This document shows positions 3 through 28,549 of a stretch of 30,892 nucleotides of DNA, in pieces. Under the pieces are notes generated by a model, which was not told the DNA's origin, searched no databases, and worked only from the letters and a program-made list of their open reading frames with translations. The stretch lies in the IMG/VR virus record IMGVR_UViG_3300031518_000006, positions 1 to 30,892 of that record; one strand, written 5' to 3'. The stretch comes from a virus. The first letter of the stretch is position 1. Each line of letters starts with the position of its first letter. A program made the position numbers and the translations under genes.

Positions 3-854
3 AATATATATTTAAGTAATATAGAACGAGTTGATGATTTTATTTATAATGTGATTACACCAATAATGGATTATGAAGGCACAAATTTTTTGAATAATGA
101 AATAATATCAATGCTTTACAAAAAAAACCCTCATAAAATTGATATAAATTTGAAAAAAGAAATGCAAAACACCTTTTCGGGTCAAATAAAATATACTTTG
201 GAATGGACTGATCCGAGACAACTTCCTGCAAGAAAACAAACAAATCTTTTCAGTTTCGTCAAAACTGATGACTTTAATCTTGTAAAGGGGTTTTTTGAGA
301 AAAACTATCCCGACTTAATGAAGGTGTTAAACACTGACTATTATATATCAGCGGAAAAAATTGATAATGAACCTGATCCCCAAATCGTAGAGATATATCA
401 TGAAGAATTTGCAAAATTTTTTAAACGAGCATTGCAGTTTTATTACTACAAGGTGTTTGAGCCGGAATTTGAGATGTTTATACATTACAATTCAAAATTT
501 TTGGAATTTGCAAAACTGTTTGATAATTTTTCTGTTTACGCTTTAAAAAATCTGAATATTCCGATGATAAAGAAGAAAGACTTTAAAGATTTGTTTAATA
601 GAAGCCCATTATTTGAATCTAATAATGAGATTTTGATTTTACTTGCTGTATTTAAAGAACTTTTGAGGCGGGTTGATGTAAATAGTCTGAATTTCCTGAA
701 TATAAAAAATTTAAATCCTGTCTATTCTTACGAATTAAGAGAATATTATGAAAAGTTTTTAAAGAATAATCCTCCGGCAGACAAGTTGACCGAAAAATTG
801 TATACAATATTCAGGAAAATTCTTGATCAAAAATTATTATTCAGATCTTCCTAA
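3..854 (+). CDS. Unknown large phage protein, 3' part only
   Basis: The reading frame is open from the first complete codon in the window (position 3) and reads as natural protein before the first possible start (GTG at 51), so I take this as the C-terminal about 283 residues of a longer protein whose start lies outside. It is rich in Lys, Asn, Phe, Tyr and Glu and looks mainly helical; I see no signal peptide, membrane segment or catalytic motif. It ends in a helical basic stretch (KLTEKLYTIFRKILDQK) and is followed after 9 nt by the 1161-residue WCTA-domain protein. The composition resembles the helical parts of that neighbour, so the two may be paralogues, but no convincing alignment is visible by eye. 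Function unknown; certainty that it is coding is high. Confidence 0.8.
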   Translation, partial: NIYLSNIERVDDFIYNVITPIMDYEGTNFLNNEIISMLYKKNPHKIDINLKKEMQNTFSGQIKYTLEWTDPRQLPARKQTNLFSFVKTDDFNLVKGFFEKNYPDLMKVLNTDYYISAEKIDNEPDPQIVEIYHEEFAKFFKRALQFYYYKVFEPEFEMFIHYNSKFLEFAKLFDNFSVYALKNLNIPMIKKKDFKDLFNRSPLFESNNEILILLAVFKELLRRVDVNSLNFLNIKNLNPVYSYELREYYEKFLKNNPPADKLTEKLYTIFRKILDQKLLFRSS

Positions 855-857
855 ATA
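852..857 (+). promoter_or_regulatory. Weak late-promoter-like TAAATA before the WCTA gene
   Basis: TAAATA overlaps the stop codon of the preceding gene and is followed by exactly 6 nt (AAACAT) and then the ATG at 864. It lacks the leading TA of the T4 late consensus TATAAATA, but the 6-nt spacing is the same as that of the better elements before the 410-aa gene, gp25 and the fibre gene. No Shine-Dalgarno is visible between it and the ATG. Taken alone it would not be credible; it is listed because of the shared spacing. Confidence 0.35.
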
Positions 858-863
858 AAACAT

Positions 864-3800
864 ATGACTATAAATAATTATATTTTCAACATTTTATTAG
901 AAAATATCATTAGCCCCAAGACTATTCTGAAAATGTTTGTTCAGGCAGGGTATGATGAAAGCGTGCTAAACGAGATTGCCAAAAAATACAATGAATCTTC
1001 TTTTGAAAATCTTTACAATAAAATATACGAAAAGGTTTCTTTTCGGGCCACCGACAGTGAAAAGTATGAACCCAAATTGATGGAAATGTACAAAATCATG
1101 AAATTTCTTGTCGATTATAAGGACAAGTATAATCTGGAAATGTTTGATTATTATGGAATGTCCCAGATGATGAGATACTCTGAAAAACTTCTGAAAAGCA
1201 GTTCCGTAGAAGAAATAAAGGACGTCCTTGAAAATGCCTATAAAAAGGCTGTATATACTGATTTTTCTCTGATGAAGGGAAAATATCCTTCAAAGAACGT
1301 CAAACTGTATTATCAGGATGAGAAGGTTGACGTATACGAAATTCTGGACGCGAAAGACATTTGCCTGAAAAGACTAGGTGCTGGAACTAATTGGTGTACG
1401 GCCAGAGGCATGTCTCGCGAACCGGAACCGCCGGATTTCAAGACGGCCAAGGAAATGTTTGATAATTATGTTCTTAACACCCACTATTATGTGGTGTACC
1501 CCAAACCGTTCAAGATTTGGTCAAAACCTGCCGGGGCTTACCGAAAATTCACTTTGCGTGCGCCTAAAACCATCAAAAGCGCTGACGAGTTTTTTGAACT
1601 TGTTTTTAAATTTGCTCAAAAAAATTCGTATTTTTTCCGGCTTGTCAGTGAGGGCAAAGGTATTTTTGATTATAAAAATATTGTCAGAAAAGACTTTCAA
1701 AGCCTGTTCAATTTGTTGTTTCCAAAACTTGAAAAAGATATCAGAAATCTTGTTAACAATACAACCAATAAAGAAAGCCATATTTACACGTTTTATAAGC
1801 ATTTTCAGGATGATGTCGGATCGCCGCCGGATTTTGATGCATATTTGGAAAAAACAAAATCCGAATCGTTAAAGGCTTTTGTGGAAAATCTTACTGAATA
1901 TTATACCTTTTTCATATCCACCAATGACAGGATGATGGCTGTATACTGGCTTTTCAAGGACTTTTTACGGTTCCACAGCGTGAGCTGGCTCCAAGAATTT
2001 GCAAATTATAAATCATTGATTAAAAATGCCTTTAAAGAATATTTTCCTTTTGAATGGCAAAATGAAAGACAGTTGCAACCCTTTGATGATGTCCTGCTCT
2101 TTAAAAGGAATGTACAACAATTTTATCTGGTGAAAGATTTCTTTGCTAGTCCCAAATTTCCCGTAAAAGATGCCTTGAAGATTATAAACTATTTTGAAAG
2201 TGAAGAAGCAAAGAGTTTGTTGAATGCGCTTGATTTTCAGGCATATCAGGAACTTTTTGAAGTAATGCATGAAGAAAGTGTAAAGTTTTTTAACAGGTTG
2301 TATGAGTTCATGTATAAAGAGAGAAAACGGACAATGAATCATAAAGACGCTGTTTTTCTGAAAAATGTGGATGTTCTTTTGACAGAAGAATCCGTTCCAG
2401 AAGTTATATCCCGGCTAAAAGAATTGTATTCAGAAGAAGATTTAAATACTCTTTTAAAGACATATACATTTGTTTACGCTGATACGATTGAAAAATTTGT
2501 TGATAAAACAATAAAAAAGCTTCTTTATTATTGGCGTGAAGAGGAAGAAGCACAAGATAAATCCAAACCTCCATCATATACACCTTCCACAAAAGAAGCT
2601 CTTGCTTTATTACAATTTTTGGTTGAATTATCAAAAAAAGGTTTAAAGCTTGATTATAAAGGAATTAAAGCTTTAAAGAATTATGGAAAGATTATTGTAG
2701 AATTTAGAGATCCAACACCAAGACGACTGCTTCTGAAAGCAAAAACAATCAATGATTTTCTTGATTTTGTCAAAATAATGGAAGAAAAATATAGTAAATC
2801 AGGTTCCGATTCACCAGAAAAACTTGCCAAATTTGATTTGGTATATCGTTCTAAAGGACAATCCGGTATTGAAATTTATCATGTGAATGTAGATCGTGGA
2901 GATTTGTGTAACGTTATCGGTTTTGGAACAGGAACTACATGGTGTACAGCAAGACGCAAACGGGCAGATATGCCTTCCCAATACAAGGAAGGAGAATTTT
3001 ATATTATTATTCCATTTCCATATAAAGAAAGTGAAGAAGCCTATCTTGAATTTGGTAAACATGAGTATTACAAAATGGCTATGTTTATTCGGGAACCTGA
3101 AATGAAATTGGATCTGGATAAACTGAATTCCTATCAACCAAATAAAACTGTCATTCAGAACGTTTTAAAAGATTTATTAAAATATTTGATTGAAAATATT
3201 ATCAATCAAAGAGAATATGGAAGTACTGATGTAGAAGCGTTTCTGAAGGCTCTGAATACAGCAGATAATCTTTCGCTTTTAAAAGAAAAAATCAAGGGAT
3301 TTCTCAATCGCTTTTCAATTGAAATATTTCTCTATGAAAAAAGTGAAATGTATTTGATATCCAACCTACACAATTTAATTTTACTTTTGTATATTCTTTT
3401 ACATTTAAACTCTGGGGAAAAAATAAACATTAATGTTTTTTCTGATATTGTTTCTCCAACATATAATATACAACAATTACATATCTTTTATAATAAAATT
3501 GGAAGCCCAGAGACCTATGAAGAGTTTATTAAAAAATCTTTTAAAGCGATTGATTTAAAAACAGTTTTAGAAAAATATTTGGATAAAAAATATCTTAGAG
3601 AAAACCAATATTGGTTTATATTTGATAGAATTAATCGATGGGCTTTCATAAATAGTTTATATGAATCCAGAGAAAAAGGGGAAGAATATGAAAGCTTTGT
3701 CAAAAGAGTTTTTCAGCTTGATAATGAGCGTCTGTTAATAATTTTAACCTTGTTTAATGATTGGTGGGGAATGAATAATGAAAATAGTATTTATGAAATT

Positions 3801-4349
3801 TTGATTAAACCATATCATTTTGAAATTAATGATAATATGCAAAATAAAATTCTGAGAAAAACACAGGGCAGCGATCTTAAAGATGCTATCAAGAAAACTT
3901 TTCCTGAATATGCTGAAGAAATTATTTCGTTCGCGCCTGTACAGAATCTTATCAAAAAAGTAGAAGAAATATATGGCACACAAAAGAAGATGTACAGCGA
4001 TACCATTAATAATCTTCTGAACCGTATTAAAAATGCTTACATAGAAGTTTTGGATGAAAATTACGATGAATTGATAAAAGATACTTTGAAAATATTTGAA
4101 GAAAAATTCAACAAACAGCTTGAAAAGATTTTTGAATTTCTGAAAATGTCTATAGTAACAGAAGATGATGTTGATGTATTGGCCGAACGTGTTGCCAATA
4201 GCTTCAAAAAGTATAAATATACTCCACAAATGATTGAAAACATTGAAGAAAAGATAATTTCTTTACGAAAAAACACTTTATTATACAATCCCCCAGAACT
4301 GGCAACATTTACAAAAACCTTTTTTGAGAAAGTAAAGAGAAAACTCTGA
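864..4349 (+). CDS. 1161-aa protein with two WCTA-motif domains
   Basis: Two copies of the same motif are visible: GAGTNWCTAR at residues 172-181 (Cys178) and GTTWCTAR ending near residue 697 (Cys694). In both, a strand of the type vdvYeI.d...C precedes the motif, and a Y...(H/E)(F/Y)Y(V/I)(V/I).P hydrophobic strand follows. From memory this GxGTxWCTA domain occurs, usually once, in uncharacterised proteins of many tailed phages; I know no assigned function. The invariant W-C pair could mean a catalytic or metal-binding cysteine, which is inference. Each domain is followed by several hundred mostly helical residues, giving a head-to-tail double architecture. No signal peptide or membrane segment. 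It starts with ATG 9 nt after the previous gene and has no clear Shine-Dalgarno. The 5' half is noticeably more GC-rich than the 3' half. Confidence 0.85.
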   Translation: MTINNYIFNILLENIISPKTILKMFVQAGYDESVLNEIAKKYNESSFENLYNKIYEKVSFRATDSEKYEPKLMEMYKIMKFLVDYKDKYNLEMFDYYGMSQMMRYSEKLLKSSSVEEIKDVLENAYKKAVYTDFSLMKGKYPSKNVKLYYQDEKVDVYEILDAKDICLKRLGAGTNWCTARGMSREPEPPDFKTAKEMFDNYVLNTHYYVVYPKPFKIWSKPAGAYRKFTLRAPKTIKSADEFFELVFKFAQKNSYFFRLVSEGKGIFDYKNIVRKDFQSLFNLLFPKLEKDIRNLVNNTTNKESHIYTFYKHFQDDVGSPPDFDAYLEKTKSESLKAFVENLTEYYTFFISTNDRMMAVYWLFKDFLRFHSVSWLQEFANYKSLIKNAFKEYFPFEWQNERQLQPFDDVLLFKRNVQQFYLVKDFFASPKFPVKDALKIINYFESEEAKSLLNALDFQAYQELFEVMHEESVKFFNRLYEFMYKERKRTMNHKDAVFLKNVDVLLTEESVPEVISRLKELYSEEDLNTLLKTYTFVYADTIEKFVDKTIKKLLYYWREEEEAQDKSKPPSYTPSTKEALALLQFLVELSKKGLKLDYKGIKALKNYGKIIVEFRDPTPRRLLLKAKTINDFLDFVKIMEEKYSKSGSDSPEKLAKFDLVYRSKGQSGIEIYHVNVDRGDLCNVIGFGTGTTWCTARRKRADMPSQYKEGEFYIIIPFPYKESEEAYLEFGKHEYYKMAMFIREPEMKLDLDKLNSYQPNKTVIQNVLKDLLKYLIENIINQREYGSTDVEAFLKALNTADNLSLLKEKIKGFLNRFSIEIFLYEKSEMYLISNLHNLILLLYILLHLNSGEKININVFSDIVSPTYNIQQLHIFYNKIGSPETYEEFIKKSFKAIDLKTVLEKYLDKKYLRENQYWFIFDRINRWAFINSLYESREKGEEYESFVKRVFQLDNERLLIILTLFNDWWGMNNENSIYEILIKPYHFEINDNMQNKILRKTQGSDLKDAIKKTFPEYAEEIISFAPVQNLIKKVEEIYGTQKKMYSDTINNLLNRIKNAYIEVLDENYDELIKDTLKIFEEKFNKQLEKIFEFLKMSIVTEDDVDVLAERVANSFKKYKYTPQMIENIEEKIISLRKNTLLYNPPELATFTKTFFEKVKRKL

Positions 4350-4418
4350 CTATTGACGTTTTAGCACCCACCATGTTATCATTATTATGGGTTATAGAGT
4401 AATTTTGTCTTTCTTTTG

Positions 4419-4426
4419 TATAAATA
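4419..4426 (+). promoter_or_regulatory. T4-type late promoter TATAAATA
   Basis: This is an exact match to the T4 late -10 consensus TATAAATA, inside the 107-nt gap (4350-4456) between the WCTA gene and the 410-aa gene. The presence of a gp55-family sigma factor in the same window supports late-promoter use. A transcript from here would have a leader of roughly 25 nt carrying AGGAG (4438-4442). The rest of the gap is T-rich downstream of a weak imperfect inverted repeat around 4362-4392 (ACCCA/TGGGT ends); I do not regard that as a supported terminator. Confidence 0.6.
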
Positions 4427-4442
4427 TTAGAAGAAACAGGAG

Positions 4443-4450
4443 AATAAATA
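4443..4450 (+). promoter_or_regulatory. Second late-promoter-like AATAAATA, 6 nt before ATG
   Basis: AATAAATA is followed by GTTAAT and then the ATG at 4457. The spacing of 6 nt is identical to that before gp25 and the fibre gene. If used as a -10 element, transcription would start at or beside the start codon. It could instead be only part of the leader of the TATAAATA promoter 24 nt upstream. Confidence 0.4.
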
Positions 4451-4456
4451 GTTAAT

Positions 4457-5689
4457 ATGAAAAAATTTAAAGACCTTTTGGAATCTATCAATCAGGATAT
4501 ATTTAATTTTACCAATCTTATCATGGAACAAGCCATCGAAAATGATTATTCCTCCATGACGCCAGATATTTTTGCAGAAAAAGTGGAAAATTTGCTTGCT
4601 GCATCTGTTTACACCAAACTGGCCTACATGCTGACAGAAGCAGATACATATCCTGAAGAAGTTATCAAAACAAGCCTTTCCAAAATCCCGGAAATTTATG
4701 ATACATTAGAAGATTATAAGTTCAGATTAAAAAACAAGATGTATACCATCAATTGGGATGGTGAAAAACTTTCTGTTACTGATGAAAATGATGTTGAAAT
4801 TTTTTCTGATGAAGCTCAGACACTTGAAGAAGTCAAAGAAAAATTATTGAAATTCTTTCTTCAAAATCAGGATCAAGAAAAGGATCAGAATGAACAAGAT
4901 ACGTCCTTATTTGGCGAACCATCATTTTCTTCAGAAAAAGAACAGGGTAAATATGATATTGATGAAATGATTGCATCAACAGAAGATCAAGACAAGAAAA
5001 GAAAATTGGTAGTACTCAAGAATTATCTGATTCCTGATTTTATAAACATTTATGTAAAAAGTAAAGAAAAGAGGGAAGCGCTGGTTCAGACTCTTTTGAA
5101 GCACATAGACGAAGAAACCGTACCAACATCTATTCCGTCTTCAGTTAAGTCAACAATTATTACACTATTTTTCATTCTTATGGATGTTCTATCAGATGAT
5201 AGAAAACTGGCTGATATTTTGACAACAAATCTTTCAGGATCAGTAATTTACGAGTCAAAGAAAACAAAAAGGCGCAGAAAATCAATTGTTGATAAAGTTT
5301 CGCGACAATTGGAATATCTACTCAGAATTGGTTTGACTGACAAACGCTTCGTATTGCGTCTGAAAAAAGCTTTGACGATGGATAAAGTATCAGCAACAAC
5401 AATCAAGATGTACCGTGACCTCATTTTAGATCTGTTGTCCGAAATTATTGAATATATTGAAAAAGATAAAACAATTTACAACAGAATCAGAACAATTCTT
5501 ACAAAAAAGAGCAATCTGATTGAAGAAAAGGATGTAGCAGAACTTCAGGAAAAGGTTCCACCAGATTTCCCTAAATCTTTGGAAAAAAAGCTGTTGAAAT
5601 TTTATAAAGATAACCCTGAACTGGCTTATGCCACAATGTGGAAAATTCACAATTTAAGACAACAGAAGAAAAAGAAAGAGAGAGAATAA
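4457..5689 (+). CDS. Unknown 410-aa protein with capsid-targeting-like N-terminus
   Basis: I do not recognise the whole protein. The N-terminus (MKKFKDLLESINQD) fits the loose pattern of T4 capsid-targeting sequences (short basic/aromatic amphipathic segment ending in (L/I)-x-E, here L7-L8-E9), where the prohead protease gp21 would cut; this is inference. The middle (about 145-180) is a polar, Gln/Asp/Glu-rich linker. The C-terminal half is basic and helical and includes KKTKRRRKS near residue 270. The last part (about 378-402, LEKKLLKFYKDNPELAYATM then WKIHN) resembles a short 'xPExAYAxxWxIxN' segment I know from many phage proteins of unknown role. The ATG is chosen because two late-promoter-like elements and AGGAG lie just upstream. 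It is followed after 1 nt by the next gene, so the two are probably co-transcribed. Confidence 0.85.
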   Translation: MKKFKDLLESINQDIFNFTNLIMEQAIENDYSSMTPDIFAEKVENLLAASVYTKLAYMLTEADTYPEEVIKTSLSKIPEIYDTLEDYKFRLKNKMYTINWDGEKLSVTDENDVEIFSDEAQTLEEVKEKLLKFFLQNQDQEKDQNEQDTSLFGEPSFSSEKEQGKYDIDEMIASTEDQDKKRKLVVLKNYLIPDFINIYVKSKEKREALVQTLLKHIDEETVPTSIPSSVKSTIITLFFILMDVLSDDRKLADILTTNLSGSVIYESKKTKRRRKSIVDKVSRQLEYLLRIGLTDKRFVLRLKKALTMDKVSATTIKMYRDLILDLLSEIIEYIEKDKTIYNRIRTILTKKSNLIEEKDVAELQEKVPPDFPKSLEKKLLKFYKDNPELAYATMWKIHNLRQQKKKKERE

Positions 5690-5690
5690 T

Positions 5691-7221: not shown

Positions 7222-7408
7222 GAGATTTAAACAATATCTAAAAGAGGAGGAAACGGGTCAAGTTCCGGTTAATAATACAACACAAGTAGATCTGACTCCT
7301 TTTGTTTTCAATACAATATTAAGGAGAAGGGACAAGAAAAATGTCAAACAACCCAAGAAATATGTCAAACAACCCAAACTGTCCAAAAAGACCAACGACA
7401 GAACTTGA
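7211..7408 (+). CDS. Small basic 65-aa protein with capsid-targeting-like N-terminus
   Basis: It starts at an ATG that overlaps the end of the previous gene by 11 nt, with GGAG 9 nt upstream. The N-terminus MNFKRFKQYLKEEE has the K-x-F-x-x-(Y)L-x-E look of T4 internal-head-protein targeting peptides, with a possible protease site after L10-K11-E12. The C-terminal half is strongly basic (RRRDKK then two KK(N/Y)VKQP units), as expected of a DNA-associated protein. The last 68 nt are read in another frame as the beginning of the next gene. The repeated basic unit comes from a 21-bp tandem duplication. That it is a packaged internal protein is inference; that it is translated rests on its coupled start and ribosome site. 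Confidence 0.6.
   Translation: MNFKRFKQYLKEEETGQVPVNNTTQVDLTPFVFNTILRRRDKKNVKQPKKYVKQPKLSKKTNDRT
7334..7375 (+). repeat. 21-bp tandem repeat in a two-frame overlap
   Basis: Two adjacent 21-bp units (7334-7354 and 7355-7375) start with AAGAAA and end with TGTCAAACAACCC; they differ at one base. In the frame of the upstream 65-aa gene each unit encodes K-K-(N/Y)-V-K-Q-P. In the frame of the downstream gene each unit supplies an ATG followed by S-N-N-P, so the duplication gives that gene two possible starts (7341 and 7362). Confidence 0.85.
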
Positions 7409-7750: not shown

Positions 7751-7780
7751 TTGCCAAACAAATTGATTATGTGCTATAAT
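7751..7780 (+). promoter_or_regulatory. Sigma70-type promoter for gp55
   Basis: TTGCCA (7751-7756, one mismatch to TTGACA) and a perfect TATAAT (7775-7780) are separated by 18 bp. The element sits in the only non-coding gap before gp55, so the late sigma factor would be made by host-type polymerase before late transcription starts. The first ATG of gp55 is only 8 nt after TATAAT, so initiation would fall on or beside that ATG. Confidence 0.65.
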
Positions 7781-7799
7781 AAAGTTGTATGGCAACTTT
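7781..7799 (+). promoter_or_regulatory. Dyad at the gp55 transcription/translation start
   Basis: AAAGTTG (7781-7787) and CAACTTT (7793-7799) are perfect inverted repeats of 7 bp around the 5-nt loop TATGG, which contains the ATG at 7789. It could be an operator at the transcription start or an RNA hairpin controlling which gp55 start codon is used. No protein partner can be named. Confidence 0.5.
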
Positions 7800-8307
7800 A
7801 ATCATATCAAAAATGGATAAAAAACCACCAAAAAATTACGTTAATAATAGTGAATTTCTGGAAAAAATAAAGGAATTCAAGAAAATTTACAGAAAAGACG
7901 AAAGTACCCGTATACCAGAAGATATTGCTGAAATAATTTTAAACATTGCAACAAATTTGGCAAAATCTCCAAAATTTAGCGGATACACTTACAAAGATGA
8001 AATGATTTCTGATGCAGTTTTAAATTGTCTTGAAAAAATCCACAACTTTTCTCCTAGAAAATCATCAAATCCGTTTGCATATTTCACTCAAATCATCTAT
8101 TACGCTTTCCTCAGGCGTATTAAAGGTGAAAACAAACATTCCTATATCAAAGACAAATCTCTTCAAAAATTTCAACATAGAATGCGCCTTGAATACAAAC
8201 ATATCAAAATCAAAGACTATCATGACACAGACAAATCTTGGGAAACGTTTGAAGAGACCCCGAGAAAAAAAGCTTCTGTTTCCCGCAAGCGCAAGAAATC
8301 TTCCTGA
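7789..8307 (+). CDS. 55: Late-transcription sigma factor gp55
   Basis: T4 gp55 is a small sigma-family protein that directs host RNA polymerase to TATAAATA late promoters. The match is direct: YVNNSEFLEKIKEFK (about 18-32) aligns with the T4 N-terminal motif, and FSGYTYKDEMISDAVLNCLEKIHNF followed by NPFAYFTQIIYYAFLRRIK (about 63-112) is the sigma region 2-like core. The second in-frame ATG (7813, M9) gives MDKKPPKNYVNN, whose distance to YVNN resembles that of T4 gp55, so the true product may be 164 aa. The C-terminus is odd: T4 gp55 ends in a hydrophobic/acidic clamp-binding tail, while this one ends in basic KASVSRKRKKSS; SWETFEE (about 150-156) is the only acidic-aromatic stretch near it. 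It precedes gp47 by 19 nt. Confidence 0.93.
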   Translation: MATLIISKMDKKPPKNYVNNSEFLEKIKEFKKIYRKDESTRIPEDIAEIILNIATNLAKSPKFSGYTYKDEMISDAVLNCLEKIHNFSPRKSSNPFAYFTQIIYYAFLRRIKGENKHSYIKDKSLQKFQHRMRLEYKHIKIKDYHDTDKSWETFEETPRKKASVSRKRKKSS

Positions 8308-11178: not shown

Positions 11179-12201
11179 TTATGAAATTTCAACAGTATCT
11201 TCTCCATATGGAACAAACAGAGTAAAATTTTTGGCGGCAGGATTGTTCCGTGAAACACCTTTCAGTTTTAAGCCGATGATTGTTCCCGGTTCATTCAAGT
11301 ACCGGGCATCATGCTTATCACCATCTTCAACTTTGTAGCGTTTTCCTGTTTCTTTGTCAATAACCCATTTTGGCAATGGTTGAGATTTTGGTTTTTCCAA
11401 AGCAAAGGTTACAGCAACATTTCCGCCTCTTTCAAGATAATCCCGGCACTCTTTCCAGTTGGATCTTGCAGGGCCTGTATAAGAAAGTGTCAAATGATAA
11501 TTGAGAGGCAATTCCTTTTTTGTTCTTTGTGGAATTTTTGTATAATCATAAAATTGTACATCTGGAAACAAATCAAACAACTCCTGAGAAATAGTTTCCC
11601 AAGGAATATCAGATGTACCATTAAGTCTGACAGCAAGAAGTTTTCCTTCTGCTTCAGCTTTTTCATTGTATTCAACAATTTCTCCGGCCAGTTTGTAAAT
11701 AAATTCTTTTGGGTGATTAAACATAAATTTGGTCTTGTTTTTCTGGGACTGTTGTACATTGGAATATCTCATATTTCCGGCAGTTTTTCCCAGACAAATC
11801 TGTTCACAATCTGGAGTAGAACAGGGACAAATATCAATTCCTGAAGATGTGGAAGGTGCCAAAAAAAGACCTACAGTATATACTGTATCCAAATCACTTG
11901 TTTTTTCCAACTTTTTATTTCCACTTTCTGGTGTTAACAACTGGTTTGGATAAATTTTGTTAGCTTCTTTCTTGAGTCGTTTAATTTCCTGATATGATTT
12001 TCCTTTTAGTTCTCTGACAGCTTCAAGAACCTGTTTTCTAAATTCATACCAAGAAAATTTCTTTTCCTTTTTATCATCCAAAACAGGAGGAAGTTCAACT
12101 TCTTCTGCAAGAAGGAAAAATTTTTCAATTGGAAAATAATATTGTTTATATTCAGTTTTTCTTACATATTCAAGAAATTTAGATAACCTTGAGTTCGCCA
12201 T
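11179..12201 (-). CDS. GP88/DUF7227-like cysteine-cluster protein
   Basis: 340 residues. The core matches, from memory, a phage protein family called GP88 or DUF7227: LFLAPSTSSG (112-121), a cysteine cluster CPCSTPDCEQIC (Cys125, 127, 132, 136), KTAGNMRYSNVQQSQKNKT (139-157), AVRLNGTSDIPWE (190-202), DVQFYDYTKIP (214-224), NYHLTLS (234-240), NVAVTF and DGDKHDARYL (293-302). The four cysteines suggest a metal or Fe-S site; the reaction is unknown to me. The N-terminal 100 residues are a charged helical extension. The ATG overlaps the end of the fibre gene by 23 nt with no strong ribosome site, so translation is probably coupled. Being last in a late unit, it may be a minor late product rather than a tail part. 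Confidence 0.85.
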   Translation of the reverse strand: MANSRLSKFLEYVRKTEYKQYYFPIEKFFLLAEEVELPPVLDDKKEKKFSWYEFRKQVLEAVRELKGKSYQEIKRLKKEANKIYPNQLLTPESGNKKLEKTSDLDTVYTVGLFLAPSTSSGIDICPCSTPDCEQICLGKTAGNMRYSNVQQSQKNKTKFMFNHPKEFIYKLAGEIVEYNEKAEAEGKLLAVRLNGTSDIPWETISQELFDLFPDVQFYDYTKIPQRTKKELPLNYHLTLSYTGPARSNWKECRDYLERGGNVAVTFALEKPKSQPLPKWVIDKETGKRYKVEDGDKHDARYLNEPGTIIGLKLKGVSRNNPAAKNFTLFVPYGEDTVEIS

Positions 12202-14046: not shown

Positions 14047-14211
14047 TTATTTATCCTTGGACAACAATTTGGTTTCCAGTTGTTCAATACGCCGTTCCAA
14101 AGCCCGGATTCTTCTTAACAATTCCTTCATAATTCCATCTTTTTTGACAATCAAAGCCATTGTTTCAGGATCTCTATAAATTTGCTTTTCTTCTGTTTTG
14201 ATGTAATCCAT
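14047..14211 (-). CDS. 54-aa coiled-coil protein between fibre and DUF4815 genes
   Basis: A short gene that begins MDYIKTEEKQIYRDPETMAL and continues into a heptad-rich basic helix (RRIRALERRIEQLETKLL), ending DK and TAA. GGAG lies about 8 nt before the ATG, overlapping the stop of the DUF4815 gene 6 nt away. The gene fills nearly all of the 176-nt space between its neighbours on the same strand, and its stop region contains the promoter-like element of the fibre gene. Likely a small structural or assembly helper for the fibre or baseplate; this is inferred from position only. Confidence 0.75.
   Translation of the reverse strand: MDYIKTEEKQIYRDPETMALIVKKDGIMKELLRRIRALERRIEQLETKLLSKDK
14048..14055 (-). 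promoter_or_regulatory. Late-promoter-like GATAAATA before the fibre gene
   Basis: GATAAATA on the minus strand overlaps the end of the 54-aa gene and is followed by AAATAT (6 nt) and the fibre ATG. It has one mismatch to TATAAATA. No Shine-Dalgarno lies between it and the ATG; AAGGA is present only about 15 nt upstream, overlapping the element. Confidence 0.5.
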
Positions 14212-17200: not shown

Positions 17201-19635
17201 GGAATTGGAGTCTTGTTCGGTGAAATAAATCCGGTTCCGGTAATGTATACAGGCCGGAAATCGAAACAATTCTTCAGATCTACATAATTTCCTTCAATAT
17301 CTTGAGCAACGTAAATATTCTTGTCATTGCTTGGATAGCTGGAAACGTTATAAAATCCGTCATTAAATGTATGAGTAAACCTGTTGAAAAAGATATGCAA
17401 AACTGTTCCATTTGGCAAAGACATGCCTGATCTCAATTTGATTTTACATTCTCTGTAAGCTTCTTCAGTCTGTCCACCATCAAATTCAAACATATAGGTA
17501 ATGTCCTTGTTTGCTTCAAACCAATCAGTATTATTATTGCTCAAATTTTTGTAGACCTTGATCAAACCAATTCCATCATAAGCTCCTGAAAGAGTTATAA
17601 ATGTGGTATCATCCAGACCACCGGGAAGAGACTGGACAAAATACCCTTTGCTTAAATCTGTAGTTCCAACAGTAAATTCAGGAACAATTTCATAATATGT
17701 GCTTGTATCTACGTTAACATTTTGGCTTATAGTTACTGACTTTTGTGTTTCATTATAATAGCTGATGGTGTAAATATTTGTGGAAGCTCCTGTGCCAGAC
17801 AGAAAACGGATTTTACAATTCTGGTAATAGTTGTTTATATCTGGTTCATAAGACTGGAGATATACAACGTTGCTGTTTGTGGTTGTCTGGGCGCAATAAC
17901 CTTGAGAAGTCTTTGTTTTTACAGGAATTTTGATATTTGGTTGAGCATTTACATTTCTTATATTTGCAATAATATTTACAGTTCCCGTAGAAAATCCTGA
18001 TAATGTCAATATAGCTGTCTGGTTTCCACCACTTAATACAACGTTGTTAACAGAGATATATGCGCCGCCACCACTATCAGATACAAGATAATCATTGGGA
18101 GATACAGAATAAAACTGTTCATTTCCGGTAAGCGAAATAGTTACTGTGCTGCTGGATACGGTCTGGTTTGCAAAGAATTTTTTGTAAAAAAGAGAAATAT
18201 CTGTAGCAGCAGAAATTTTTTCAAACCCTGTATTGTAAACAAGAGGTGTATTTAAAGGTTTGTATAGTGTCTTTGGAGTTGCCAATTTTAGAGTTGCAGC
18301 AGGAGAAGACGAAACAAATTTATCAATATCATTGATTGTTTTTCCTGTATTAAGTGAAAAATTGAACACATACAATTTGAATTTTGAGCCATCTACTCTT
18401 TCAATAGAACGAACATAACAAGTTCCAATTTGGACATCTGAAGAATCTCTGATTTCAAGCAAACCGAACGCGCCAATATTAAAAAGCCCTGAAGAACCGG
18501 ATGTAGTAATCAGAAAATAATTATCATAATAAACAGAAACTCCATAATTGTTTGTATTTTCTGTATCACGGGCCTTGTTGATATCAACATATTGTGTAGC
18601 AATGGTTTCAAATTCAAATCCGTTAACGTATGCCAAACCCGGACTCAAATATGCCCGCAACTTGCTTTCATCTGAAGGATGATCATCAAGATTCAAAATA
18701 AACGGTCTTACGGTATAATTTCCTGATTCATTGTATGTTCTGCGGGCAAGAGTTTTCATCAATTCATTATAATTTGGACGGGAAATCTGTTTGTATAATT
18801 TTCCGTCTCTTGTTTCCAGAAGTTCAATAAAATTCTCTTCAGGCGAAGGAATATAATTCAGATCTTTGCTTTGCAGAGTCAAAATTACCTTCAAACGGCT
18901 TGCGCCGGGAGCAGAATAATTGTACGTTCCTGTTGCATTGTCCAAAAGTGTAGAATCATCTCCTTCATTGACAATCTGAATTTGAGAAAGCAGCCCTGCT
19001 TTTTTATTTGGAGCATTGGAATATTTATCAAGAGGAACTGTCTGGCTGTTGCAAATAACAAACATTCCTTTTGTATAAAAAATTCCATCCGAAATACTGA
19101 CAGTAGATGATTTACCATAGAAATTGCTGCTTTTGATTTTAGCAACCGGATTTGGATAATTTGCATCATTAATATAATTGCCGGATGAATCCTGAACAAC
19201 AACTCTGATATCTTCTCCGCCAATAAAAGGAATTCCATTCAATTCCTTTATAATCAATGTCTTGGGATCTGTAGAAGTCTTGTCTGCGGCTGTTGTTACC
19301 AAAGCAATTGCACCAGAAGAAACACCTTTGATTGTTCTACCAATTAAAGAAACAGGATTGAATTCTTCACTTGAAGATCCCGGAACAAGCTCTTCCATTT
19401 TCAGATATCTTGCAGAAATTGTGTCTATGGTAGTACCACCACCATAGACAATAGATCCATCCTTGAAAATGTGGTTTGCAAAACGCTCCACCTGCATCTG
19501 GAGGATGGATTGTAGCTGATTCAATTCACGGGCTTGAACTGCTCTTCCGGGCCGGAAAAGGATTCTCAAAAAATCCTTTTGGACGTCATAATCGTCAAAA
19601 AAAGGACTTGCTGCTAACTCTTTGATTACGCTCAT
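14218..19635 (-). CDS. Giant baseplate/tail protein, DUF4815 family (1805 aa)
   Basis: The N-terminus (SPFFDDYDVQKDFLRILFRP, GRAVQARELNQLQSILQMQV at about 11-50) is the hallmark of DUF4815 phage virion proteins of cyanophage-like T4 relatives, often placed where T4 has its gp9/gp10 baseplate periphery. A helical segment KLEKRIENIEYYTSLSLVE (about 885-905) is also typical. Then come an Asn/Trp-rich stretch (about 1035-1070), an Ig-like beta domain (about 1185-1265, YIPYIRPRTVTFTAKGLKPD) and a lectin-like/jelly-roll-like region beginning DPLAQSFFVDP (about 1315). It probably forms a large peripheral part of the baseplate or a fibre-attachment arm. TATAAATA lies 7 nt before the ATG with no Shine-Dalgarno. 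The exact T4 counterpart is uncertain. Confidence 0.88.
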   Translation of the reverse strand: MSVIKELAASPFFDDYDVQKDFLRILFRPGRAVQARELNQLQSILQMQVERFANHIFKDGSIVYGGGTTIDTISARYLKMEELVPGSSSEEFNPVSLIGRTIKGVSSGAIALVTTAADKTSTDPKTLIIKELNGIPFIGGEDIRVVVQDSSGNYINDANYPNPVAKIKSSNFYGKSSTVSISDGIFYTKGMFVICNSQTVPLDKYSNAPNKKAGLLSQIQIVNEGDDSTLLDNATGTYNYSAPGASRLKVILTLQSKDLNYIPSPEENFIELLETRDGKLYKQISRPNYNELMKTLARRTYNESGNYTVRPFILNLDDHPSDESKLRAYLSPGLAYVNGFEFETIATQYVDINKARDTENTNNYGVSVYYDNYFLITTSGSSGLFNIGAFGLLEIRDSSDVQIGTCYVRSIERVDGSKFKLYVFNFSLNTGKTINDIDKFVSSSPAATLKLATPKTLYKPLNTPLVYNTGFEKISAATDISLFYKKFFANQTVSSSTVTISLTGNEQFYSVSPNDYLVSDSGGGAYISVNNVVLSGGNQTAILTLSGFSTGTVNIIANIRNVNAQPNIKIPVKTKTSQGYCAQTTTNSNVVYLQSYEPDINNYYQNCKIRFLSGTGASTNIYTISYYNETQKSVTISQNVNVDTSTYYEIVPEFTVGTTDLSKGYFVQSLPGGLDDTTFITLSGAYDGIGLIKVYKNLSNNNTDWFEANKDITYMFEFDGGQTEEAYRECKIKLRSGMSLPNGTVLHIFFNRFTHTFNDGFYNVSSYPSNDKNIYVAQDIEGNYVDLKNCFDFRPVYITGTGFISPNKTPIPYSLLSVDLSYYLAKIVKIIATADGEFAVLEGSSARNPKPPADVDYGMTLYTIYLSPYTNNKNSTKIKYIENKRYTMRDIGKLEKRIENIEYYTSLSLVESSIVAMEVKDTDGNTRFKNGILVDSFEGHNIGEITNPDYKCSIDITKKELRPLFKQRAFTLYPLSYNNMIVHSNGIATRTYTLQNYIVQNKASRKVNVNPYSVFLWRGSVTLNPSSDIWKDTKIRPTNINNINNLNNNISFGSIPWNTNFNDWNTNWSGNWVINTQTQQQFEEVIEERETWEPDLLSFGNLELWIRNGGSMRLSWTDPFTGQALQTPVYVAWQRQIDGSERATAVIPARLQRTQQVVNRPTGALVQTQTVLRPTIQIQNTNLGDVVVNVDYIPYIRPRTVTFTAKGLKPDTQVYAFFDDVPVSQYITPSTLITNSAGEVSGTFNIPANKFLTGERLFRLTDSSTNNRSQETTFAEAKYFAQGLEEEKVTLNIQTASIGFETSQIQTVVQPVDPLAQSFFVDPVIYPNGLFIKEIDIFFASKDNAIPVILQIRENVNGYPSNIEILVEVLKPASQVSTSQDGSVATTFSFPAPVYLKPGEYSIVLISNSNKYEVWVAEIGEKEISTNTLISEQPYVGSFFKSQNASTWTAEQTQDLKFTIKMCNFTGTTFNMVLTDFLNPSTEPDIYVTIPVLENVSSGNIIRAGNLTERNIVIGSIVSGSGIPANTTITGINYVENKITLSNSVTETITQGSLLGVLRKADIENASDARNIMNLFRTSLSVFNPFNNIRLSYTFRAKQYGSGSLGSETPFTPGNNYELPTPCQIDVANESFRIGIYGTADTLGQFVSPVINLQRNYFVAVENIINSPAITSTFETNATGGEAYARYITKKVTLTDVSNYLRIYLDMYRPQNTDVKVFYRVLRESDAGTIYEKSWEKTVPTDNINSVYSNKESDFFEVCFVPSDASGNPVTNIGNFIEFQVKIVLLSSNTCVVPKVKRLRILALE

Positions 19636-19642
19636 ACGTATC

Positions 19643-19650
19643 TATTTATA
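19643..19650 (-). promoter_or_regulatory. T4-type late promoter TATAAATA before DUF4815 gene
   Basis: Perfect TATAAATA on the minus strand, exactly filling the space between the gp8 stop codon (19651-19653) and the 7 nt before the next ATG (19635). No ribosome site is visible in the sequence between, so a transcript started here would begin at or next to the start codon. Confidence 0.65.
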
Positions 19651-23882: not shown

Positions 23883-23886
23883 ATTG

Positions 23887-25653
23887 TTACTGTGCTACAA
23901 TTCTTATACTGATATCTGTCGGATCAATAATCAGAATATCATTGTATTTCATCTGAACGTCAAAAGCTTTCGGTTCTGCAATAAATGACATGGTGTAATC
24001 GTTTCTTCCAACAACACTGGAAACATTCATGACCAGTTCAACATTTCCTGTATTGTAATTCACAGTTCCCACCACTTTCCGGCGCACTTTTTCGCCAACG
24101 TTATTCACGGTATACGCATAAACGTATCCTCTTTCATCTTCCAGAAAAATATCCAGTTCTGAATTGATTGTTGTATCGGTTTTCATCTTCAAAGGAACCA
24201 GATTTTTGAAAGAACGTTCTTTGATTTCATTTTTGAAATTAACTTTATATGTGTTGGTCAGGTTTGGAATAAACGTAACGTATTTTTTCAAAAGAATGAA
24301 AGTATTGTTGCCGATAATTGCCGGGTTGATATTGTTGATTTGTGTGATAAATTTGCTGTAATTGAAATAAGTGTCAAATTTTCCCAGTTCGTTGTTGGCA
24401 AATTCTTCAATTGTTTCCAGAATTGAAAATTTCATCTGTTCAGCGTCCATTGAAGTTTTTCTGGTATCGTACTTGATTGTTGAATCAAGAACAAGAAAAG
24501 TGTACTCGGGATCTACAATTTCAGGAATCACAGTAACAACATTTCTGGACTTGATAATTTCGTTGATGATTCTTTGCTTTTCGCTGACACTCAGTGTGAA
24601 TCCCTTTTTTGGCCTGATTGAAATAAAAACTTTTCCGTAGATTGGTGGATCATTATCCTGTCCACCCCAGACAGAAACAGACTGTGCAAGTGGATACTCT
24701 TTTTCCAGAAAATATTTGTAGTCATTGACTGTAACTGCCCGTTCCTGAGCGTAATAGGCATTCAGCGTATTTTTTCTGATGCTGTCCAGAGGTTCCGGCT
24801 CAGACCCGCCATAAGACGGAACAATTGTCAAATAATTAATATCCTGTTGTCCGAAACGCCCATCAATCAGGTTGCCGGAATAGGCAATATTGGAAAGGCC
24901 GTTTGCAGCTTCTCCGGCACTTGTTTTGTAATAAATCTGAATTGTGCTCCCCGGAGAAGGCACCTTGCCCAGAATTCCGTCTCCAAAAAGAATTTCATAC
25001 GTCTGGAAAGGAGTTTCAAAAATGTAAAAAATCCGGGAATCAGCATTCAATGTTTTCAAGTTATTGAAACGTGTATAGGGCATGACTTCATTGTTTTGTG
25101 TAATTTCATAAACTTCAACAGTGGAAAGGTCAATATTGAATTCAGGAATAATGAATTTTGAAAGTCCCGCCTGATACGTCTGTTTTACCCACACACCTTC
25201 AATCAATTCAATTTCCGCATTGTATTTTCCGTTTTTGGATTCCAGCGTATAGCTCTGTACTGGTGTAAATGTGTATTGCTGGTTGTCGGAGCCAACAGTG
25301 AATGTGGCTGTACGCTTGTCCAGAATGATTTTATTTCCATTTTGCAAAGAATTTACAGGCTCGGTAATTTCAATGACAATTTTGATCCTTGCTGATGTTC
25401 TTCCTTTGGGAGTGTAGCCAAAATTCTTTGCAATGCTGGCCAGAGAACCTCTTTTAATTGCAGTACCAAGAAAATTCTCGTTAATTGCCATGTTCATGTA
25501 GAACATATTGTAATATGTGTTATATGCAAGAATATCAAGCAACAGACTCAAGCCTGAGCCTTCAAAATTGTAATCTGTAAAATCCGGGTTGTTGGCCAGA
25601 TAATTCTTGATATTTTCTTTGATTTCAGTAAAATTCAGTTCTGAAACTTTCAT
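23887..25653 (-). CDS. 6: Baseplate wedge subunit gp6 (baseplate J-like)
   Basis: The T4 gp6 family builds the inner ring of the baseplate. The N-terminal region FEGSGLSLLLDILAYNTYYN followed by MFYMNMAINENFLGTAIKRG (about 30-69) is the family hallmark, and the baseplate-J core is seen at about 240-320, with YYKTSAGEAANGLSNIAYSG and SGGSEPEPLDSIRKNTLNAY-type motifs and DYKYFLEKEYP. The length is 588 aa against 660 in T4. It overlaps gp25 by 4 nt (ATGA) with GAGAGG in front, so the two are coupled. Confidence 0.93.
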   Translation of the reverse strand: MKVSELNFTEIKENIKNYLANNPDFTDYNFEGSGLSLLLDILAYNTYYNMFYMNMAINENFLGTAIKRGSLASIAKNFGYTPKGRTSARIKIVIEITEPVNSLQNGNKIILDKRTATFTVGSDNQQYTFTPVQSYTLESKNGKYNAEIELIEGVWVKQTYQAGLSKFIIPEFNIDLSTVEVYEITQNNEVMPYTRFNNLKTLNADSRIFYIFETPFQTYEILFGDGILGKVPSPGSTIQIYYKTSAGEAANGLSNIAYSGNLIDGRFGQQDINYLTIVPSYGGSEPEPLDSIRKNTLNAYYAQERAVTVNDYKYFLEKEYPLAQSVSVWGGQDNDPPIYGKVFISIRPKKGFTLSVSEKQRIINEIIKSRNVVTVIPEIVDPEYTFLVLDSTIKYDTRKTSMDAEQMKFSILETIEEFANNELGKFDTYFNYSKFITQINNINPAIIGNNTFILLKKYVTFIPNLTNTYKVNFKNEIKERSFKNLVPLKMKTDTTINSELDIFLEDERGYVYAYTVNNVGEKVRRKVVGTVNYNTGNVELVMNVSSVVGRNDYTMSFIAEPKAFDVQMKYNDILIIDPTDISIRIVAQ

Positions 25654-26039
25654 CTTAGCCTCTCAAGGAAAATGGATACTGAATAAATTTCCGGCAAGTT
25701 GATAATGGAAAACGTGACGCTGACTTCCAGAAAATTCTGATCATCCTGCTGATTTATAGTGACGTTTCGCAGTTCCACGCGCGGCTCATAAACAGTCAGA
25801 ACGTCCCTGATGAATTTCCTGATCATTGCACTGGTTTTGGGTGTGAAATTTTCAAACAATTGTGTATAAATCAACGTACCAACCCAAGGATTCATTCTGC
25901 GTTCAAAAATGGATATGAGGATCAGATTTTTGACGCTGTTTTTGACAGCTTCAGCATCAATTAAAGGTACAATATCACCCTTTACACTATCTCTTTTCAT
26001 TGACAAATCAATATCCTTGTACCGGAAATTATTTTCCAT
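25650..26039 (-). CDS. 25: Baseplate wedge subunit gp25
   Basis: 129 residues of the GPW/gp25 family, conserved from T4 to type VI secretion (TssE) and required to nucleate the sheath-side of each wedge. Visible signatures are a central IFERRMNPWVGTLIYTQLFE (44-63), where the family has GERxxxPxxG...LFE, and YEPRVEL (84-90) before the last two strands. The first unit of a wedge operon gp25-gp6-gp7-gp8. AATAAATA ends 6 nt before the ATG; TAGGA lies close to the ATG but at a short spacing. Confidence 0.93.
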   Translation of the reverse strand: MENNFRYKDIDLSMKRDSVKGDIVPLIDAEAVKNSVKNLILISIFERRMNPWVGTLIYTQLFENFTPKTSAMIRKFIRDVLTVYEPRVELRNVTINQQDDQNFLEVSVTFSIINLPEIYSVSIFLERLR

Positions 26040-26045
26040 ATATCC

Positions 26046-26053
26046 TATTTATT
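26046..26053 (-). promoter_or_regulatory. Late-promoter-like AATAAATA before gp25
   Basis: AATAAATA on the minus strand overlaps the gp5 stop codon and is followed by GGATAT (6 nt) and the gp25 ATG. It has one mismatch to TATAAATA and the same 6-nt spacing as before the fibre gene. Confidence 0.5.
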
Positions 26054-27275
26054 CAACAAACTCTGGAACCGGAACAGGATAGGTTCTTTGTTTTATTTCA
26101 GTTTCTACAGAAATATCAGGCTGCCCCGGTGCAGGCATTACTGGTTTTACAATGCCAATACCGCCAGCTTTCAGCGATTCTTTGGCCTGATTAATTGCAG
26201 GATTGGAAGAAACGTTCATGGATTTCAGTTGAATATTCATTCCTGATTGAAGAGTAATGTTTGACCTCGCATTGATTTTTACAGAATCTGCATTTAATTC
26301 CAGAGTTTGACCGGAAATGATTTTTGCTTGCCCGCCGACTCTGATAGTACATGATCCGGTTACAGTAATGTTGGAATTGTTGTAGACCATCAAATTATAC
26401 GGCCCGTCCACAGTCAGATTGTAGCGGTTCATGACGTGTTCATATTTTTCTGCCATTATAACAGAAAATGAGGAGTGGACAATTTTCTCAACCTTTGTAC
26501 CAGCCGGATAAATTTCCATAAACGTTCCCGATCTGTGCCAGATATGCAGGCGCTCAAATTTTTTTGTGTCATCAATTTCAAAAATATGTCCTGATTCTGA
26601 TTCTTTCACCTTGTTGTATGGATAAATGGCATTATATGGAGTAGATGGTTCAGACCAGAAAGAACCATCAGCAGCTTTTACCATTTTGTCCAGATTATTT
26701 CTCTTTATGAAAACAATTGTGTCTTCAATTTTCTCGTTTCTTGCCAACCTGTTGATGTCATTTTCCTGAATAACACACCCCAAAGGATGTTTTTTTCTGG
26801 GATACAGATCAGTTTCAGGTGTTCTTTTTTCGTTTTTCAGTTCAATTCCCAGTCCATCATTCTTGTAAATGCGCTCTTCAACTTTTCTTGGACGTTCTGA
26901 AATATTTTTTCCCGGATCCAGAAATCCTGTTTTTTTGTTCTTTGGATACGGATAATCTCCCTTGGAATACCCGCCTCCGAACGTTCCGAAAATAACTGGT
27001 TCCTGACAATTCAGCGAGTCCTTGAAAAATCCAACCACCCAAGAGCCTTCTACAAGTCCCAGAGAAAAATCACCAATACCGTTGATGCCAGCAGAAGACA
27101 CGGGCATCAGACACCATGCCCAATGCAGGCCTTCTGTAGGAATGTCTTCTTTATTTTCTGTATGATGTCCAAATATTCTCACCTGAACCCGGCCCAGTTT
27201 TTCAGGATCTTCCCGTGATTCCACAACACCAATGAACCATACAAATTGATCCAAGCCGATAAAATTCGGAATCAT
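26049..27275 (-). CDS. 5: Baseplate hub/spike protein gp5 without lysozyme
   Basis: The N-terminal OB-fold of the gp5/VgrG type is clear: FIGVVESREDPEKLGRVQVR (14-33), then HWAWCLMPVSSAG (51-63), GSWVVGFFKD and EPVIFGTFGG (92-101). The C-terminal half (about 270-360) is a run of short alternating strands (VDGPYNLMVYNNSNITVTG, VKINARSNITLQSG) consistent with a trimeric beta-helical spike. The lysozyme domain that T4 gp5 carries between these parts is absent: the intervening stretch is about 150 charged residues with no glycosidase motif. The tail ends in a Pro-rich segment (PVMPAPGQPD, PVPVPEF). It shares an A with the gp27 stop and has GGAGGTGA upstream. Confidence 0.88.
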   Translation of the reverse strand: MIPNFIGLDQFVWFIGVVESREDPEKLGRVQVRIFGHHTENKEDIPTEGLHWAWCLMPVSSAGINGIGDFSLGLVEGSWVVGFFKDSLNCQEPVIFGTFGGGYSKGDYPYPKNKKTGFLDPGKNISERPRKVEERIYKNDGLGIELKNEKRTPETDLYPRKKHPLGCVIQENDINRLARNEKIEDTIVFIKRNNLDKMVKAADGSFWSEPSTPYNAIYPYNKVKESESGHIFEIDDTKKFERLHIWHRSGTFMEIYPAGTKVEKIVHSSFSVIMAEKYEHVMNRYNLTVDGPYNLMVYNNSNITVTGSCTIRVGGQAKIISGQTLELNADSVKINARSNITLQSGMNIQLKSMNVSSNPAINQAKESLKAGGIGIVKPVMPAPGQPDISVETEIKQRTYPVPVPEFVE

Positions 27276-28528
27276 TATTCTTCACCTCCGATAGATTCCT
27301 TGACCAGTTCCATTACCATCATGTATTTTTCTGAAGTAAAGTGATGATTTATTCCGGTAATCAAATAAAGTCCCGAATGGGTCATGTCAAGTCCGCTGGT
27401 TTTTGAAGTATCTTTTCGAAAATCAGGATACTTGAAGTCAACGACATCACCAACAGACAAATTCGGAGAAGCAGGAATACGAATTTTGATTCTGTGATTG
27501 CTCAGGAGCGATAATTGAGACGTTCTGACTTGTTTTGCCATATTTACATTGCTTCCATGCTCCATAGATTTCATGAACAATACCATGCTGGTTGAATCAA
27601 GAAACGGATTGAGATATTGATTGTAAAACGGATTTTTGTTCAATGAATCAAATTTCCTGTGGAAATCATCACGGTAATTGAACGTTGTATTTTTCCAGCG
27701 TTTTTCTGTGACGGAAATTTCAGTCAGGCGGGAAGAATAGGCTCCTTCCATTCCAAGTTTGATCAGGTCAAAATTGTTCAGAACTTCAAAAGTATCGGCA
27801 GTAGAATATTTTCTGATATCAACATCAAAGCTGTGTGTTTTCTTTACAAAGTAGTAAATTTCCTTTTTTGGTGGCTGTTTGTAGAGATTGTCAAATGACC
27901 GGAACCAGAATCTGGATTCATTTAAAGTCTGGAAAAAAATGAAACTGCTCAGACTGCTTCCGATTCTGGATTCAGTCTGAATGGATTTTTCAGCACACCA
28001 GTTAATCGCTCTGAATGGAGTCCAGTTGGGGATGATCACTTTTTCCAGTGTTGTTTGTGTGTTTTCAACAGTTAGCGGGGCTTCAGTCTGGAGGGCATTG
28101 AAACAGTATTTTACAATCTCATGGAGAGGTTTTTTGACAAATGATTTACTTATTCTGGTTTTTAGGTTCTGGACATGTTGTTCTGAGACAAATTCAATGC
28201 TGTATTTTTTGGCAGTGCCTGTTGCCTGAACGAATTCAGTTGAAATTTTTGATACAAATCCAAGAAAAGAGATATCCAGTTTCTGGATCTGCCCGTCTAC
28301 TTCATTGTATAATTCTGCATCAAAAAGAATTCGCTCACCACCCAGAATTTTTTCAACACCCGGAAGGTTATCAGACTCAACGATAGCAACGTTGCCTGAA
28401 TAGGAGAATGCAAACAGATCTTCATAGAGATTGATTTCCAGAAACACATTGCTGATATCAATTACATTTGTTTCTGTAATTATAATAAATCTTTTGAGAT
28501 TGTATTGTCCGGGATGAAAATTTTCCAT
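27275..28528 (-). CDS. 27: Baseplate hub protein, gp27-like
   Basis: 417 residues placed immediately before gp5. The beta-rich start (LKRFIIITETNVIDISNVFL, EINLYEDLFAFSYSGNVAIV at about 12-51) and the later LSVGDVVDFKYPD followed by HSGLYLITGINHHFTSEKYMMVME (about 350-410) have the layout of gp27/VgrG-type hub rings that sit on the gp5 spike, the tube initiator. T4 gp27 is 391 aa. The first gene of the baseplate block, it follows a terminator and carries CATAAATA 9 nt before the ATG, without a proper Shine-Dalgarno. The assignment rests on fold-like patterns and gene order rather than strong sequence identity. Confidence 0.72.
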   Translation of the reverse strand: MENFHPGQYNLKRFIIITETNVIDISNVFLEINLYEDLFAFSYSGNVAIVESDNLPGVEKILGGERILFDAELYNEVDGQIQKLDISFLGFVSKISTEFVQATGTAKKYSIEFVSEQHVQNLKTRISKSFVKKPLHEIVKYCFNALQTEAPLTVENTQTTLEKVIIPNWTPFRAINWCAEKSIQTESRIGSSLSSFIFFQTLNESRFWFRSFDNLYKQPPKKEIYYFVKKTHSFDVDIRKYSTADTFEVLNNFDLIKLGMEGAYSSRLTEISVTEKRWKNTTFNYRDDFHRKFDSLNKNPFYNQYLNPFLDSTSMVLFMKSMEHGSNVNMAKQVRTSQLSLLSNHRIKIRIPASPNLSVGDVVDFKYPDFRKDTSKTSGLDMTHSGLYLITGINHHFTSEKYMMVMELVKESIGGEE

Positions 28529-28530
28529 TA

Positions 28531-28549
28531 CTCACATTATTTATGTGAG
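28531..28549 (-). promoter_or_regulatory. Inverted repeat around the gp27 promoter element
   Basis: CTCACAT and ATGTGAG are perfect 7-bp inverted repeats around a 5-nt centre. The dyad encloses the CATAAATA element and ends 2 nt before the gp27 ATG. It could be an operator or an RNA hairpin; its 7-5-7 layout is the same as that of the dyad at the gp55 start, though the sequences differ. Confidence 0.5.
28538..28545 (-). promoter_or_regulatory. Late-promoter-like CATAAATA before gp27
   Basis: CATAAATA (one mismatch to TATAAATA) on the minus strand, 9 nt before the gp27 ATG and downstream of the terminator of the accessory operon, so a new promoter is needed here. The rest of the gap between 28550 and 28580 is AT-rich with nothing I recognise. 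Confidence 0.5.

Follow-up and report, generated by a model that had tools for sequence, protein, structure and literature searches.

How close to a start codon can a T4-type late promoter lie, and is there then any room for a ribosome-binding leader? T4 late transcription is the textbook case, in which the late mRNAs carry leaders with ribosome sites. In the window (the whole stretch of DNA that we analyzed, which is an entire 30.9-kb virus record, a linear fragment with 35% GC), six genes have a TAAATA element 6 to 9 nt before their ATG. The minus strand encodes a baseplate block (gp27, gp5, gp25, gp6, a gp7-like 884-aa protein, gp8, DUF4815, and a fibre), and the plus strand encodes gp55, gp47, and gp46. 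The genes of interest are:

864..4349, plus strand: 1161-aa gene, with a weak short-gap element
4457..5689, plus strand: 410-aa gene with no family assigned, with a putative short-gap promoter and perhaps an additional led promoter
7789..8307, plus strand: gp55, the late sigma factor and expected reader of the elements (PHROG 234, late sigma transcription factor, E = 2e-45)
12179..14041, minus strand: tail-fibre gene, with a putative short-gap promoter (PHROG 9942, E = 1.3e-8)
14218..19635, minus strand: DUF4815 (VrlC-like) virion gene, with a putative short-gap promoter (PF16075, E = 2e-64)
25650..26039, minus strand: gp25 baseplate wedge, the best-conserved short-gap gene (PHROG 261, E = 1.3e-37, and alignment)
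27275..28528, minus strand: gp27-like tail gene, with a putative short-gap promoter (PHROG 350, E = 1.3e-64)

The elements before these genes are:

851..857, plus strand: weak CTAAATA, 6 nt before the ATG (864) of the 1161-aa gene
4444..4450, plus strand: ATAAATA, 6 nt before the ATG (4457) of the 410-aa gene
14048..14054, minus strand: ATAAATA, 6 nt before the ATG (14041) of the fibre gene; unchanged in the near relative described below
19643..19650, minus strand: TATAAATA, the perfect T4 consensus (ATAAATA is 19643-19649), 7 nt before the ATG (19635) of the DUF4815/VrlC-like gene; unchanged in the near relative
26046..26052, minus strand: ATAAATA, 6 nt before the ATG (26039) of gp25; same placement in 62 of 84 loci
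28538..28544, minus strand: ATAAATA, 9 nt before the ATG (28528) of the gp27-like gene, in the loop and arms of a hairpin

Compared to the octamer (T/N)ATAAATA, five of the elements contain ATAAATA, and one of these is the perfect octamer. The C at the first position of CTAAATA is the Aeh1-type variant (PMC1524935). A preliminary description of this sequence had reported six elements before ATG codons, five of them exact ATAAATA, as well as a gene for gp55. We confirmed all of these, including the coordinates and the gaps of 6, 6, 7, 6, and 9 nt (and 6 nt for CTAAATA).

We found ATAAATA at a gap of 4-9 nt before 5 of the 23 gene starts in the window, while dinucleotide-shuffled upstream regions gave a mean of 0.04, and 0 of 5,000 shuffles gave five or more. 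For TAAATA, the count was 6 and the shuffled mean was 0.12. This comparison of element-to-start distances with shuffled sequence had been proposed as a check, and when we ran it on the window and on its relatives (see below), the outcome favored the proposal.

Most of the short-gap genes were also said to lack a good Shine-Dalgarno sequence. By our test, which is a motif test, this is true overall, but AGGA occurs at -16 to -13 of the fibre gene and AGGAG at -19 to -15 of the 410-aa gene. These are too distant from the ATG to be good Shine-Dalgarno sequences. As for the claim that genes inside the same units have strong sites, it is correct for gp5 and gp8 but not for gp6, which has a weaker GAGAGG. 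The 884-aa gene (23882) has none.

What kind of phage is this? By the similarity of gp6, the nearest named relatives are the Pelagibacter phages HTVC008M and Mosig, the Methylophilales phage Melnitz, and cyanophages, at 30-35% identity. In single-protein searches, the sole near relative of the window was the contig IMGVR_UViG_3300028820_000059 (97% identical in gp6). Three large adjacent proteins (1161, 410, and 376 aa; 864-4349 and 4457-6821) had no match to a PHROG family, and the 1161-aa and 410-aa proteins had no match to a Pfam family. There were also matches in genome bins named Pelagibacter, Flavobacteriales, Planctomycetaceae, Euryarchaeota, and others, but none were close to the window, and most of these bins are probably mixtures. 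A T4-like gp6 region is also present on a 188-kb contig in the assembly of the isolate Nonlabens xiamenensis 1Q3, and this contig may be a phage of that strain. The late co-activators of T4, gp33 and the sliding clamp gp45, were not seen within the 30.9-kb fragment. The annotation of HTVC008M includes a sliding clamp and a putative late promoter transcription factor.

To survey the relatives, we sampled 80 viral contigs with a relative of gp6 and 80 with a relative of gp55, or 160 loci. Most of these are short metagenomic contigs. We measured the gap from each NATAAATA, on both strands, to the next ATG that opens a reading frame of at least 50 codons. (Starts in the relatives were thus set by the ATG and the minimum length, except for gp25, whose start was chosen by homology.) Across the 160 loci, the distribution of gaps is bimodal, with a spike at 4-6 nt, a trough at 10-16 nt, and a broad mode at 17-45 nt. 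The spike contains 81 sites, 49 of them at exactly 5 nt, while scrambled motifs of equal composition gave a flat background of 0.2-0.7 per 100 sites. Shine-Dalgarno motifs were found at 2 of 81 sites with a gap of 4-6 nt and at 59 of 87 sites with a gap of 17-30 nt.

The short gap is therefore not private to the window but is common among uncultured T4-like phages. The preliminary description had considered the arrangement unusual by contrast with T4, and this contrast holds. Among named phages, we counted ATAAATA-N4-6-ATG and the reversed pattern across the genome: HTVC008M had 11 versus 3, Mosig had 10 versus 1, and Melnitz had 6 versus 1, whereas T4 (2 versus 2), S-PM2 (2 versus 2), Syn9 (2 versus 4), BUCT-ZZ01 (2 versus 4), and phiM12 (0 versus 0) had no such excess. 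So the cultured pelagiphage HTVC008M has the short gap, while the sampled T4, S-PM2, Syn9, and phiM12 do not. In the gp6 tree, the window lies on a long isolated branch, yet it has the short-gap state.

The short-gap genes of the relatives are mostly virion genes according to PHROG. Among the 40 that we scanned, there were 15 DNA end protectors, 8 tail tubes, and 4 baseplate wedges, as well as tail-tube cap, head closure, tape measure, and other proteins.

We also considered whether the sigma70 box TATAAT might be a general leaderless signal, and we rejected this: sigma70-like TATAAT in the loci of the relatives showed no comparable spike near ATG. Without a strong spike for TATAAT, the short-gap effect is specific to the late box. 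Within the window, the region upstream of gp55 (7751-7788) contains TTGCCA-N18-TATAAT, a good promoter of the sigma70 type whose -10 is extended (a preceding TGC). Its -10 box ends 8 nt before the ATG, so the gp55 mRNA may itself be leaderless or nearly so.

Short-gap and led promoters stand in an either/or relation. For instance, 62 of the 84 gp25 loci are of the short-gap type, and another 11 have a Shine-Dalgarno site with the box 16-33 nt upstream. Of the 12 loci whose gp25 has a Shine-Dalgarno site and no short gap, 11 keep the same element farther upstream. When mapped on the gp6 tree, the short gap is widespread and its carriers cluster; counting only those two classes, there have been at least three changes between the short-gap and the Shine-Dalgarno-led state.

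Where would transcription begin? The T4 late element spans -13 to -6 (PMC1524935; PMC2988020). This leaves five bases before +1, and with a gap of 5 the AUG's A therefore falls on +1. At led promoters, purines peak at bases 6-7 after the element (88% at base 6 in T4; 72% and 80% at bases 6 and 7 in the relatives), which is the position of the AUG's A in the short-gap class. Also, the base before the ATG is T in 80% of genes with a gap of 5 and 81% of genes with a gap of 6, as compared to 31% of genes led by a Shine-Dalgarno site. A pyrimidine precedes the ATG in 91% of genes with a gap of 5 versus 49% of led genes. Because the counts from relatives include related sequences, we collapsed them to protein groups for this key test: T precedes the ATG in 23 of 26 short-gap groups versus 12 of 40 led groups (p = 3e-6). 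The base preceding the ATG looks initiator-like in the short-gap class. In the window, the gaps are 6, 6, 6, 7, and 9 nt, whereas the clade peaks at 5; a leader of 1-4 nt is therefore just as likely as no leader.

We consider it quite probable that the elements are gp55-dependent late promoters that give leaderless mRNAs (with leaders of 0-4 nt); the arrangement itself is conserved in a large clade of T4-like phages. These T4-type promoters would be read by RNA polymerase bearing the gp55 that the phage encodes. If the start point is that of T4, the first transcribed base would be the A of the AUG or a base at most about 4 nt upstream of it. The late mRNA would then lack a ribosome-binding leader, and its 5'-terminal AUG would be used directly by 70S ribosomes or initiation complexes, as happens with leaderless mRNAs known from elsewhere. 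Most inner genes of these transcripts keep their Shine-Dalgarno sites. The preliminary description had suggested that these mRNAs start at or beside the ATG. As a strong prediction from sequence, this is supported by the preferred gap of 5, which equals the spacing from element to +1 in T4, by the initiator-like base, and by the absence of Shine-Dalgarno sites at short gaps and their presence at long ones. We regard the leaderless late mRNAs as just that, a strong prediction.

Several of the putative promoters have additional features. Upstream of the 410-aa gene there is a second perfect TATAAATA at 4419-4426, and the AGGAG (4438-4442) lies between the two boxes. The two boxes in series could possibly give this gene one led and one leaderless transcript. 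A few bases into the coding sequence of the 1161-aa gene (864-4349) comes another perfect TATAAATA, at 869-876, which may serve as the late promoter of a shorter product or may have arisen by chance. The gp25 box at 26046-26052 contains the TAA stop codon of the upstream gene, gp5, so that the promoter and the end of the coding sequence are merged.

The gp27 box lies in a perfect hairpin, CTCACAT-AAATA-ATGTGAG, at 28529-28553 (about -10.6 kcal/mol for 31 nt), which ends right before the ATG. In the near relative, the arms of this hairpin differ in extent and still pair (TACTCACATA/TATGTGAGTA). The hairpin would fold in read-through RNA and not in RNA from the late promoter. Alternatively, it could be an operator. 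In the early RNA of T4 gene e, the ribosome site is hidden by a hairpin, and the late start falls within that hairpin (PMC3014915). The gp27 promoter is similar in that it, too, is located in a hairpin that would form in read-through RNA only. It differs in that the late transcript of gene e still bears a Shine-Dalgarno site, while the late transcript of gp27 is predicted to lack one.

The alternative that fares best, although we consider it unlikely, is that these promoters work but that the short-gap start is minor: the main late mRNAs would come from late promoters farther upstream, and short-gap starts would be secondary. Because gp25 and other genes lie inside tandem units, read-through transcripts could also cover them, and read-through is likely in such units. 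The 410-aa gene, with its two elements in series, also fits this alternative. But the short-gap genes lack Shine-Dalgarno sites, so a read-through mRNA would be poorly translated there, unless translation is coupled to the upstream gene. Also, the gp27 hairpin would take up the region right before the AUG in read-through RNA.

It seems improbable that the TAAATA box is a translation element instead of a promoter, such as an AU-rich ribosome site or S1 site that replaces the Shine-Dalgarno sequence. The box does occupy the position of the Shine-Dalgarno sequence that it would replace, and because gp25 and others are in tandem behind upstream genes, their translation from read-through mRNA is conceivable. 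However, the box is the exact gp55 promoter octamer, and there is no spike for scrambled motifs of equal composition. The gp25 homologs that are led by a Shine-Dalgarno site keep the octamer 16-33 nt upstream, where a translation element would be needless. The peak at exactly 5, with T before the ATG, fits an initiator. Finally, in HTVC008M the ATGs of the divergent genes gp2 and gp4 are 26 nt apart, and each gene has an element at a gap of 5. Promoters are needed there, and no normal leader fits in 26 nt. (Clean divergent pairs were too few for a statistical test.)

It is still less probable that the late promoters are real but the start codons are wrong, with translation beginning downstream, behind ordinary leaders. 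The 1161-aa gene gives some reason to consider this, as it contains a perfect box and the next ATG comes 23 codons later. For the six genes as a whole, though, the next in-frame ATG is 13-259 codons downstream. The first upstream in-frame stop is 2-4 codons before the ATG, with no in-frame ATG, GTG, or TTG between. All six start with ATG. The start of gp25 is backed by homology, as the protein aligns from its first residues with gp25 from T4, HTVC008M, Mosig, and Melnitz. Two lineages keep the ATG at the same spot: in the near relative, the boxes of fibre, DUF4815, and gp25 are unchanged, and at gp27, despite divergent flanks (38 differences in 90 bases, compared without gaps), the box and its distance to the ATG are kept to within one base. 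Across the 160 loci, the spike at 4-6 nt has no counterpart at GTG or TTG, which are not above background at short gaps (74 ATG, 2 GTG, and 0 TTG starts). A wrong start codon is excluded for gp25 and is unlikely for the other five genes.

Chance matches in AT-rich intergenic DNA can be dismissed with near certainty: although ATAAATA is not enriched per se in the window (14 occurrences versus 11.9 expected), no shuffle reached the observed count of placements, and comparative data, with the same placement in 62 of 84 gp25 loci, refute this explanation.

How do these putative leaderless promoters compare to known systems? Like the T4 late promoters (gp55/gp33/gp45; TATAAATA at -13 to -6), which have no conserved -35, they have the same octamer, virion genes downstream, and gp55 encoded alongside. 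In T4, however, the element is mostly 14-35 nt before the ATG, with a Shine-Dalgarno site between, and only the long hump is present; in the window the distance is 6-9 nt, with no such site between. The late promoter of the Kyanoviridae cyanophages and pelagiphages, NATAAATA (PMC2984593), is the same motif; these are the nearest named relatives by gp6, and HTVC008M and Mosig have the short gap, whereas the cyanophages S-PM2 and Syn9 show no excess there. The parts of the cyanophage reports that we saw describe NATAAATA upstream of late genes and do not mention leaderless starts (PMC2984593, PMC3037559). A study of pelagimyophages reports that methods made to find cyanophage promoters were unsuccessful with its phages (PMC7029224). 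In the literature that we searched, no T4-like phage was described as having leaderless late mRNAs; the Syn9 transcriptome (Doron 2016, cited in PMC5780444) was outside its scope.

In bacteria, chiefly Deinococcus-Thermus and Actinobacteria, leaderless genes marked by a -10 box some 10 nt upstream of the start codon are an established class (PMC3160421, PMC12340547). As in those genes, the phage genes have a promoter box near the start codon and no Shine-Dalgarno site. A box about 10-12 nt upstream of the start codon is typical of that class, and the phage boxes, with gaps of 6-9 nt in the window and 4-9 nt in the relatives, agree with this. The difference is that the bacteria use a host sigma70/A box, while these phages use a late sigma box, mostly before late virion genes.

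More tentatively, there may be a separate class of leaderless late messages (gp25, gp2, gp8, tail tube, tail-tube cap, and others) in a large environmental T4-like clade, in which the late promoter and the translation start are a single element and genes switch during evolution between leaderless and Shine-Dalgarno-led forms. We view this wider proposal as possible rather than probable. If it is true, late virion genes would be under Shine-Dalgarno-independent translation, perhaps matched to ribosomes that are altered late in infection. We also considered whether a phage-encoded bS21, a ribosomal protein that sits near the anti-Shine-Dalgarno end of 16S rRNA, accompanies leaderless genes, and we did not adopt this idea: among the loci examined, most of which are fragments, we found bS21 only in HTVC008M (37857-38060 of its sequence, L170).

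If the late mRNAs of many aquatic or other environmental T4-like phages begin at the AUG, their translation would not rely on Shine-Dalgarno sequences, and the calling of starts and promoters in such genomes should use the element itself. As a cultured member, HTVC008M makes the leaderless prediction testable. Homologous genes that occur in both forms, such as gp25, would provide a natural series for testing why one form or the other is chosen.
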